Origin: an uncultured Candidatus Melainabacteria bacterium
GTDB lineage: Bacteria > Cyanobacteriota > Vampirovibrionia > Gastranaerophilales > Gastranaerophilaceae
NCBI GenBank assembly: GCA_947570135.1
Contig: CANOTP010000001.1
Location: 248,001 to 312,000, forward strand
Direction: 5' to 3'
Length of the DNA stretch: 64,000 bases
Shown here piece by piece: positions 7,325 to 58,615 of this stretch. The position numbers and the translations under genes were made by a program. Positions within the stretch are counted from its first letter, which is position 1. Each line of letters starts with the position of its first letter. The notes under the pieces are model-generated. The model saw only the letters and a list, made by a program, of their open reading frames with translations. It made no database searches and had not been told where the DNA came from.

Positions 7325-7374
7325 TACGAAGAGGATGTGTAGTTGTTCTATATTTTATAGAGAGGAGAAAAAGT

Positions 7375-7448
7375 ATGAAAAAGCAGACTACAGTTAGGAT
7401 TGCGGGGGGGGTAACTCTTTAAGCTCCTCGGCCGGAGTGGGCACCATG
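7375..7448 (+). promoter_or_regulatory. Out-of-frame leader ORF with G8 tract and internal re-initiation site before the prepilin gene
   Basis: A Shine-Dalgarno (GAGGAG) precedes ATG 7375, which opens a 15-codon ORF starting MKKQTTVRIAGG and ending at TAA 7420-7422. It contains a run of eight G (7404-7411). The prepilin frame is +2 relative to this ATG, so adding one G (or losing two) would fuse them with no intervening stop. Downstream of the stop, GGAG (7434-7437) lies 8 nt before ATG 7446 and could re-initiate translation of the prepilin with a shorter leader. Confidence 0.7.
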
Positions 7449-8816
7449 CTACCAATGGAATTAACCCGACTCCGACAGCTCAGCTCCGCGGGAAATCAAC
7501 GAGCATTTACCCTGACAGAGGTATTACTTGCAATAGCGATAGTGGGAATAATCGCAGCGTTGGTATTGCCTATGATAGTGAAGGATTACCAGACAAAGAC
7601 CTTAGACGCCGCGCTAAAACGAGAAAAACAGACGATAGAATCATCAATAGCATCCTTACTGATAAATGAAAACACCGATGATTATAATAAAACGATGTTG
7701 TATACAGGTGAAACAGACCCGAGCAGTTATGCAAATACAAGCGGAAGGTATATAACAAAATACTTAAAAGTATCGAAGTATTGCGGGGACAATAACGGAG
7801 ATTGTTTTGCAAGTAAATATTACAAATACGAAAGTGGCGATAAATCAGTATACACCCCGACATATAAAGGAGCCTGCGCTTCTTTAAAAAATGGGAGCAG
7901 TATCTGTATGGAACCTAAAAATCCAACACATGGCGTAAAAATATTGTTAGATATAAACGGTAAAAAGGGTCCGAATATAAAAGGCCGTGATTTACATGAA
8001 TACGAGATTCCGTTACCCGATAAAGGCGGTTTAGACAGAACAAGTAATGATGTAACGTGGGATTACAGGTTGGTAGATATAAAACCAGTGTGCAGTGACG
8101 GCGATACAAGTGAAGAGTGTTGTGAAAGTAATTTCAGTACAGGTTGTTGTACGGCTTATCCTGAAAAATACGGAAGCCGAGCAGAATGTAAGACATGCAG
8201 TGCGACAAAGGGTACAGACGCTGAATGTTGTACAATATCAAAGGATTATGCAAATGCACATAAATCAAGTTGTTGCAGTAATATAAAAGAATACTTTGAT
8301 GATAATCAATTATCTTGTTGTTCACTAAAACCTGCAAATCCTTGGTGTCCGCAAAAATCTGCGTGTGAAACTTATCCTGATAGTTGGGCTTGTTGTAAAA
8401 CAAAAGATATTACTGATCCTTTAGATAAATGTTGTAATGATTATCCTTCGTTACAAGAAACTGATGCTTGTAAATATCATTGTCACATGGAATTTAAAGG
8501 CGGTAACGGTAAAGTTAATATTACCGTGACGGGTAATGGTGCTAAATATTGTGTTGGTATGGCGATTAAGTATGATGGTGGGAAAAATGGGTGGTTACCT
8601 ATTATTGCAGGAAGTGAAAGAAGTTATAATCCTAAAGAGATAGAGCAGTTTTGTGTGAATCCGACACTTGGTAGTCCCGGTTACGGACCTTGTGTTAATA
8701 ATACTTTCGGTAGAAATTCATTTAATTTTTCGCTTAACAGGTCATTTAAACCTAATCGTTCTTCCGGTAGTGGTAGCGGTTCAGGAACAGGAGGGAGGAA
8801 GCGGTACAGGTTTTAA
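7437..8816 (+). CDS. Type IV prepilin-like protein with a cysteine-pair-rich C-terminal domain
   Basis: The open frame starts at GTG 7437; ATG 7446 is the better internal start. With one extra G the leader ATG at 7375 would be in frame, adding about 20 residues. The prepilin segment is AFTLTEVLLAIAIVGIIAAL: hydrophobic helix with Glu at +5, although the residue before F is Ala rather than Gly. After the helix come a DINGKKGPN motif shared with the other prepilins here, then about 130 residues with repeated Cys-Cys pairs, and a Ser/Gly tail ending RKRYRF. The Cys-rich domain is probably disulphide-bonded outside the cell. Its function is unknown; minor pilin or adhesin is possible. Confidence 0.75.
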   Translation: MGTMLPMELTRLRQLSSAGNQRAFTLTEVLLAIAIVGIIAALVLPMIVKDYQTKTLDAALKREKQTIESSIASLLINENTDDYNKTMLYTGETDPSSYANTSGRYITKYLKVSKYCGDNNGDCFASKYYKYESGDKSVYTPTYKGACASLKNGSSICMEPKNPTHGVKILLDINGKKGPNIKGRDLHEYEIPLPDKGGLDRTSNDVTWDYRLVDIKPVCSDGDTSEECCESNFSTGCCTAYPEKYGSRAECKTCSATKGTDAECCTISKDYANAHKSSCCSNIKEYFDDNQLSCCSLKPANPWCPQKSACETYPDSWACCKTKDITDPLDKCCNDYPSLQETDACKYHCHMEFKGGNGKVNITVTGNGAKYCVGMAIKYDGGKNGWLPIIAGSERSYNPKEIEQFCVNPTLGSPGYGPCVNNTFGRNSFNFSLNRSFKPNRSSGSGSGSGTGGRKRYRF

Positions 8817-8862
8817 GCCTGTAGAAAATGAATTGCAACCAGCTTATCCTTAAATAATTTAA

Positions 8863-16991: not shown

Positions 16992-18059
16992 TTATCCTTG
17001 AATTAAACGTTTTAATTCGTTTGGTTTTGAAGATTTAGATAACGCATCTTCAATAGTAACCAAACCTTTTTTATATAACTCGGCAAGTGCAGCTTCAAGA
17101 GTCTGCATGCCTGCACCTGAGCTTGTTTGAATTGTAGAATAAATCTGTGCAGCTTTAGCTTCACGAATAAGGTTAGCTACAGCAGGAGTAACAACCATGA
17201 TTTCCTGAGCCATAACACGACCTTTTTTAGAACCGTCAGGTTGACGTTTTGAAAGAAGTGTTTGTGAAAATACAGCAACCAACGAGTTTGCAAGCTGTAC
17301 ACGGATTTGCTGTTGTTGACCTTCAGGGAAAACGTCGATGATACGGTCAATTGTTTGAGAAGCAGAAGATGTGTGCAGTGTTCCAAACACCAAGTGACCT
17401 GTTTCTGCGGCTGTTAGTGCTAACGAGATAGTTTCGTGGTCACGCATCTCACCTACCAGAATGATATCAGGGTCTTCACGGAGTGCGGATTTTAATGCGT
17501 TAGCAAAAGATCTTGTATCCATACCTAATTCTCTTTGGTGAATAATACTCATTTTAGATGTATGCACAAATTCGACAGGGTCTTCGATTGTCAGAATATG
17601 TTCGGCTCTTGTTCTGTTGATATAGTCAATCATAGCCGCAAGAGTTGTAGATTTACCTGAACCTGTAGGTCCTGTTACAAGAACAAGTCCGCGTGGTTTT
17701 TCTGCAATAGTTGTTACAATCGGCGGCATTCCGAGTTCTTCAAGCTGTGGAGCTGATGTTGCAATTGTACGGAAAGCTGCAGCATAAGAACCTTTATCTT
17801 TATAAAAGTTCACACGGAAACGGCCAACATTTTCGATACCGTAAGAAAAGTCAAGTTCCCATTCTTGTTCAAGGTGGCGTCTTTGTTCATTTGACATCAT
17901 AGGAAATAATAATGCTTCAACCTGTTCTGATGTCAGCGGATCGTAATCAAGTCTGATAAGTTTACCGTCGATACGTGCGATTGGCGGTAACTTACTTGAA
18001 ATATGTAAATCGGATCCTTTTTTATCAGACAATTCTTTTAATAAATCTTCTATAATCAT
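16992..18059 (-). CDS. pilT: Type IV pilus retraction ATPase PilT-like
   Basis: Hexameric secretion ATPase that depolymerises pili for retraction. 355 residues, standard PilT length. Walker A GPTGSGKST at residues 130-138, the Asp box region LTIEDPVEF, and the Walker B/AIRAREDPD-type stretch ALREDPDIILVGEMRD. The His box is near TGHLVFGTLHTSSA. AAGGGGC precedes the ATG. Preceded by an 83-residue gene on the same strand (20-nt gap), probably the same transcript. Consistent with the prepilins elsewhere in the window: retractile pili are likely. Confidence 0.92.
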   Translation of the reverse strand: MIIEDLLKELSDKKGSDLHISSKLPPIARIDGKLIRLDYDPLTSEQVEALLFPMMSNEQRRHLEQEWELDFSYGIENVGRFRVNFYKDKGSYAAAFRTIATSAPQLEELGMPPIVTTIAEKPRGLVLVTGPTGSGKSTTLAAMIDYINRTRAEHILTIEDPVEFVHTSKMSIIHQRELGMDTRSFANALKSALREDPDIILVGEMRDHETISLALTAAETGHLVFGTLHTSSASQTIDRIIDVFPEGQQQQIRVQLANSLVAVFSQTLLSKRQPDGSKKGRVMAQEIMVVTPAVANLIREAKAAQIYSTIQTSSGAGMQTLEAALAELYKKGLVTIEDALSKSSKPNELKRLIQG

Positions 18060-43818: not shown

Positions 43819-43892
43819 ATGAAAAACGTTACTATGACTAAGATTTCGGGGGGGGTAACTTTTTAAGCTCCTCGGCCGGAGTGGGCACCATG
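43819..43892 (+). promoter_or_regulatory. Out-of-frame leader ORF with G8 tract and internal re-initiation site before the third prepilin gene
   Basis: AAGGAGG precedes ATG 43819. The 15-codon ORF (MKNVTMTKISGG...) contains eight G (43848-43855) and stops at TAA 43864-43866. The prepilin frame is +2; with nine G the frame runs through without a stop. After the stop, GGAG (43878-43881) lies 8 nt before ATG 43890. The layout is nearly identical to that at 7375-7448. Confidence 0.7.
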
Positions 43893-57892: not shown

Positions 57893-58615
57893 TTATTTTG
57901 TTGTATTAAGAACATATCTTGCGGCGGCTGAGGCGGGGGCAACGGTACCGTCATAAAATACTACAGGAAATACGTCTCCCATGTAATTTGGAGAGTTAGG
58001 TACAACACAAGATGCGTTAATATCTCGAGTGTGTGATTTTCCGTCTTTGCAACGAACTTCTTTATTTGGAAGACTTACTCCATTAACATCTATCCACCCA
58101 AGGCAATATCTGTGGAATTGTGTTTCTGTCATTCGTTGTTCTAATGTTTTGTTGCCAAGAGAACATTCTGTTGTTGGCGAGTGGAAAGCGAAGAAAGAAC
58201 CGTCTTTTAATTGGTAGTAGTATAAATTAACACCTCGCTCTTTAATTTCAGTATCTGAAGTTGTGCCTTTATTATATAAGTCTTTGTAATAAAGAGTGTT
58301 GTTGGCTGTTTTTAATTGTGTATAGTTGAAAATAGTAACTCCAGTCATTGTTCCATTAAATATTGCACAAACAGACATTGTAGTTTCAGGGTTATCTGTT
58401 TTGTTGCAGGCTTGCCCTGCGGAACCAAAGTCAAAATCATGTTTTGCGATATTCATTTTTACTGCCTGATTTAGTGAAGAAAGGGTCTTTTTGTATTGAG
58501 AACGGTATTTTGCACCGTTTGTGTTTGCAATCAGTGTCGGGATTGTCATTGCAGCAACTACGCCTATTATACCTAGGGTGATTAATATTTCAGCCAGTGT
58601 AAAACCTTTTTTCAT
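57893..58615 (-). CDS. Type IV prepilin-like protein without poly-G leader
   Basis: 240 residues. Starts MKKGFTLAEILITLGIIGVV, so the cleavable leader is only three residues and a good AAAGGGA site precedes the ATG. Glu +5 present, hydrophobic helix complete. The C-terminal domain carries Cys residues (ACNKTDNPETTMSVC, CSLGNKTLEQRM, RCKDGKSHT...CVVPN) and a GWIDVNGVSLPNKEVRC motif shared with the others. A minor pilin or pseudopilin. It provides the intact comparison for the poly-G-led copies. Confidence 0.85.
   Translation of the reverse strand: MKKGFTLAEILITLGIIGVVAAMTIPTLIANTNGAKYRSQYKKTLSSLNQAVKMNIAKHDFDFGSAGQACNKTDNPETTMSVCAIFNGTMTGVTIFNYTQLKTANNTLYYKDLYNKGTTSDTEIKERGVNLYYYQLKDGSFFAFHSPTTECSLGNKTLEQRMTETQFHRYCLGWIDVNGVSLPNKEVRCKDGKSHTRDINASCVVPNSPNYMGDVFPVVFYDGTVAPASAAARYVLNTTK

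Follow-up and report, generated by a model that had tools for sequence, protein, structure and literature searches.

Contingency loci of Campylobacter jejuni carry alleles of G8 to G13, among which there may be a preferred out-of-frame length (PMC3025981). The pilin loci described here resemble those poly-G/C loci in that tracts of G8–G13 lie within coding starts and one-base changes restore or break the reading frame (PMC3025981). In C. jejuni the tracts belong to a variety of surface-modification genes whose starts are unrelated. Here, by contrast, a single leader module is common to dozens of paralogous pilins, and the loci are ~90% out of frame and on one strand. A poly-G frameshift switch is also attributed to Neisseria pilC (Jonsson 1991, cited in PMC5084427); in both systems a homopolymer in the signal region places type IV pili under frameshift control. 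The pilC gene encodes a pilus assembly/adhesin protein, whereas here the tract sits in pilin-like subunits themselves, in some 30–40 copies. Programmed transcriptional slippage and -1 ribosomal frameshifting are similar in having a homopolymer near the start and a product in another frame. Unlike those systems, the offset here is sometimes not -1, no stimulatory structure was found downstream of the tract at the 25 loci analysed, and natural in-frame alleles exist. Our literature search for poly-G pilins in this bacterial group returned no paper.

The window is a 64-kb stretch of an uncultured Candidatus Melainabacteria genome (G000). The initial annotation had described a Shine-Dalgarno sequence and an ATG opening a short leader that contains a G tract and then stops, and direct reading confirmed each element. 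On the plus strand, AGGAG (7363–7367), which is kept in other copies, precedes a 15-codon leader, MKKQTTVRIAGGVTL, that runs with its stop from 7375 to 7422 (ATG at 7375, TAA at 7420–7422), as comparison of copies also indicated; the G8 tract occupies 7404–7411, and the same length was read in 22 G000 leader-pilin pairs. The claim that the prepilin lies one G away from the leader frame was likewise borne out. The prepilin reading frame (7398–8816, plus strand, stop at 8814–8816) is intact and in -1 relative to the leader ATG, one additional G carries the leader frame into AFTLTEVLLAIAIVGIIAALVLP, and two natural G9 copies in this genome (L018, L052) are in frame. Treating the locus as a single switch was correct as to the tract, but the locus proved to be one member of a family of ~40 copies.

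The window prepilin is type IV pilin-like: a cleavage and N-methylation motif is followed by a hydrophobic helix that begins at 7506, with profile matches to PF07963 (26.9 bits) and TIGR02532. Counted from codon 7485 on, it contains 28 Cys. Between tract and helix lies a dispersed G+C-rich inserted repeat, CTCCTCGGCCGGAG..ACCATG (7422–7485, plus strand), which is open in the pilin frame and was delimited by comparison of L002, L003 and L019, the last being a tract-free copy of the repeat at G000:C1:361100. In the nearest relative with the same leader module (G026, matching public record CAMDYM01, also an uncultured Candidatus Melainabacteria), the pilin directly after smpB (L405) lies at the position syntenic with the window locus. 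Its ORF is shorter (197 residues), runs open from what may be a TTG start, and has neither the Cys-rich part nor a tract. By this comparison, both the leader module and the G+C-rich repeat seem to have been inserted at the start of the window pilin or to have replaced what stood there. At the other end of the gene (8770–8853), a second frame runs on past the pilin stop as GSGTGFKPVENELQPAYP, so the C-terminus of the window pilin may be frameshifted; the ends of relatives differ.

Type IV pilus machinery in the window is represented by the PilT retraction ATPase (16992–18059, minus strand; TIGR01420, 504.5 bits). A search for the prepilin peptidase of G000 gave a weak match to the A24 peptidase profile (PF01478, 19.3 bits, G000:C9:39923–40381). 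This profile was below its curated cut-off in G000 and in most same-genus genomes tested, despite more than 100 pilin helices, and scored well in other families of the order.

We searched the whole G000 genome with 261 bases around the window leader and obtained matches at 40 places, corresponding to ~40 dispersed copies; a scan of viral contigs gave one match. Three copies fall within the window. The second (L020, 19566–20322, plus strand) has a leader with a disturbed frame, an A-run shorter by one and G11, with a prepilin 3' of it. The third (L002, 43819–44609, plus strand) has a leader that reads MKNVTMTKISGGVTF to a stop, G8 at 43848–43855 and a prepilin in the -1 frame. For comparison, sequence reading identified an ordinary prepilin at 57893–58615 on the minus strand, with a normal start (MKKGFTLAEILITLG) and no tract. 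Nearly all G000 copies share one anatomy: a Shine-Dalgarno sequence, ATGAAAAA..., G8, TAACTTTT, an early stop, and the helix FTLAEVLITLGIIGVVAA in the -1 frame. Pairing of the Shine-Dalgarno sequence with CTCCT was rejected as a general feature, being present in some copies and absent in the GCTTAG variants. The leaderless G000 pilins that were read have normal starts (MKKGFTLAE... and similar), except for a few that carry degenerate leader remnants. G/C homopolymers of at least about seven bases in or near the 5' coding region exceeded chance: the window contains 9 G7 matches versus 1.56 in shuffles, and G000 contains 37 runs of G8 or longer on one strand versus ~3 expected (i.i.d. estimate). 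In several copies (L004, L024, L105, L112 and others) palindromic-repeat-like insertions such as CATTGCGAGGAGCATAGCGACGCGGTAATCC lie in frame between tract and helix, upstream of the prepilin cleavage site. The leader stretch may tolerate insertions provided that the frame stays open, because prepilin peptidase presumably removes the leader.

Six other genomes that we examined likewise have leaders of this kind ahead of pilin genes, all genomes compared being draft assemblies. Besides G026, these are four of the same genus as G000 (G001, G041, G007, G014) and one of another genus in the same family (G066); in these five the poly-G leaders ahead of pilins are of other sequence. A strict pattern, GGG...GTAACTTT, had implied few genomes and was abandoned as too narrow, since relatives carry other bases after the tract. 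The number of G8 or longer runs per genome among relatives ranged from 0 to 117. Such runs need not mark pilins: the 20 G tracts fetched from G058 were mostly not pilin leaders, and several of its contigs carry a repeated sequence, G10 then TAAACCGCTCAYACCAAAGG, that apparently represents a different poly-G family.

Frame state was scored in 107 leader-pilin pairs from the seven genomes. Of the pilins, 69 were in -1, 27 were in +1 and 11 were in frame; thus, 96 of 107 were out of frame. The in-frame share differs from the one-third expected at random (p ~3e-8), a significance that is overstated since leaders share ancestry. The G014 frames were mostly inferred from the conserved TAACCTTTTAAGG 3' of the tract, because contigs there end shortly beyond it; only three were read to the helix. 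The typical tract was G8 in G000 and G026, G9 in G001, G041 and G014, G10 in G066 and G11 in G007. Modal length was very uniform inside each genome although the leaders have diverged. Both offsets occur: the 18 G007 loci combine G11 with a +1 offset, and in G014 both 30-nt and 31-nt leaders are modal at G9. Several changes in upstream length are offset by the tract so that the same out-of-frame register results (28+G9 in L025, 26+G11 in L298, 31+G9 in G026, 29+G12 in L245). Tract length nonetheless varies among related copies and species, ON versus OFF states included. L052 of G000 is G9 and in frame, whereas L109, the G026 orthologue that shares 85% identity with it, is G8 and out of frame; within the window pilin's own group, the G041 orthologue is G9 and out of frame and the G001 orthologue is G10 and in frame. 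The natural in-frame G9, G10 and G11 copies demonstrate that a one-base change in the tract joins or breaks an otherwise intact reading frame. We concluded that a poly-G pilin family that is out of frame by default is real and widespread, a conclusion that is well supported.

The out-of-frame genes do not resemble relics. In G000, 27 of 29 pilin ORFs extend more than 200 residues beyond the helix start, and orthologue pairs in which neither species has the pilin in frame (L014/L116, L010/L112, L027/L117, L221/L218) gave dN/dS of 0.09–0.14 at dS of ~0.4–1.4. Out-of-frame pilin ORFs are thus under strong purifying selection. That is, because these pilins are both full length and constrained, they must be expressed somehow, and often enough for selection to act.

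All leader copies in G000 are on the plus strand, whereas its ~105 pilin-type helices are divided between plus (59) and minus (46). GC skew was positive in all G000 stretches sampled (8 contigs), even where minus-strand genes dominate. In G026, whose contigs are mixed in orientation, the leader strand matched the sign of the skew in 11 of 11 sampled stretches on 10 contigs, and it likewise fitted the skew in the G041 and G066 stretches checked. Because the leader strand tracks skew while ordinary pilins occur on both strands, the leader module is restricted to the G-rich strand, which is presumably the leading strand. The bias could arise if selection disfavours G tracts that face the replication fork, or if leaders are copied in a strand-biased way. 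A pilin with an unrelated leader (L201, G000:C1:240977; G9, +1 state) is the sole tract-bearing pilin that we saw on the minus strand.

We consider it probable, though by no means certain, that these genes form a default-OFF, poly-G phase-variable pilin repertoire. Under this reading, ~40 pilin genes would each be headed by a short leader holding a G tract; at the usual length for the species the leader frame would run into an early stop and the prepilin would not be made. One G gained or lost by slipped-strand replication would fuse leader to prepilin, the fused leader presumably being cleaved at G/A^F by prepilin peptidase, and individual cells would display few of the many pilins. DNA slippage allows both the -1 and the +1 offset, and this one mechanism also covers the in-frame copies and the differences between orthologues. 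From sequence comparison we infer that the DNA slips in living populations, that slippage affects expression, and that the pilins have a surface role. Contig ends are suggestive of mixed tract alleles in the sample: the ends of C1 and C3 have an identical leader and 55 identical downstream bases yet differ as G8 versus G9, and C15 breaks off at the last base of a G8 and shares a 55-base overlap with C5, ending where a 55-mer assembly graph would branch given a longer-tract allele. Repeats could also cause these breaks. Contig breaks near tracts in G014 were rejected as evidence of heterogeneity, their distances being varied and the downstream sequence itself repeated.

Slipped-strand phase variation was also the mechanism proposed in the initial annotation. 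Its proposal to compare the tract across related genomes yielded species-typical G8, G9, G10 or G11 and orthologues that differ. The mechanism gains from this variation among paralogues and orthologues, from the existence of ON copies and from intact, constrained genes downstream, but the strong out-of-frame bias and near-constant modal lengths leave room for programmed recoding. Fast-mutating tracts should spread more than the uniform modal lengths that we observed, the compensating upstream and tract changes preserve the same out-of-frame register, and the window copy may be translated from an internal start.

Programmed recoding, which we regard as possible but rather unlikely, would treat the G8–G11 tract as a constant slippery site where RNA polymerase inserts or skips a G, or where the ribosome slips -1 on G GGG GGG, so that every gene yields a small fixed share of prepilin. 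It fits the dominance in each genome of one out-of-frame register that survives compensating indels, the strong constraint on out-of-frame genes, the -1 offset in 69 of 96 out-of-frame pairs and the possible -1 heptamer G GGG GGG in the leader frame. The heptamer with a conserved -1 offset holds in G000, G026, G001, G041 and G066, but G007 and part of G014 are offset +1. A universal -1 ribosomal frameshift, which we favoured for a time, was dropped on this ground, since a pure -1 frameshift is contradicted by G007 and by half of the G014 leaders, where the opposite direction is needed; bidirectional RNA slippage would escape this objection. In-frame orthologues and paralogues also speak against recoding. 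Pseudoknot-free RNA structure in the 60 nt after the tract was no stronger than in shuffles (mean z 0.01, n = 25 loci), and no Rfam element was found. A stricter version, in which dozens of pilins per genome are expressed only via programmed slippage of RNA polymerase or ribosome on a fixed-length tract and leaders spread only in the leading-strand orientation, is in our judgement unlikely; if true, these pilins would rank among the largest families of recoded genes in any bacterium.

It is much less plausible that the window pilin is translated from an internal start 3' of the tract (GTG 7437, ATG 7446 or ATG 7455, all in frame), the leader being merely a regulatory or relic peptide. GGAG does lie 8 nt before ATG 7446, within the inserted repeat. 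However, 73 of 96 loci with an out-of-frame pilin (19 of 27 in G000) lack any ATG, GTG or TTG between tract and helix, so internal starts cannot account for the majority; the window copy belongs to the remainder, which have candidates. Error in sequencing or assembling G homopolymers, already judged a poor explanation in the initial annotation, is highly improbable: the genomes are drafts and long tracts such as G12 with NN occur in G007, but the majority are just G8–G10, dozens of loci repeat one and the same offset, and this holds in several species that each have a typical length of their own.

For gene calling, automatic annotation may miscall tract-led pilin genes; the automatic ORF listing, for example, started the window pilin at a GTG inside the inserted repeat. 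If the phase-variable reading holds, this uncultured, Cyanobacteria-related lineage has a surface repertoire that is among the larger ones switched by homopolymers, and one reusable start module silences most of its pilins by default. The spread of the repertoire, its restriction to one strand, and whether a constant OFF length reflects silent genes or programmed slippage would then become testable.
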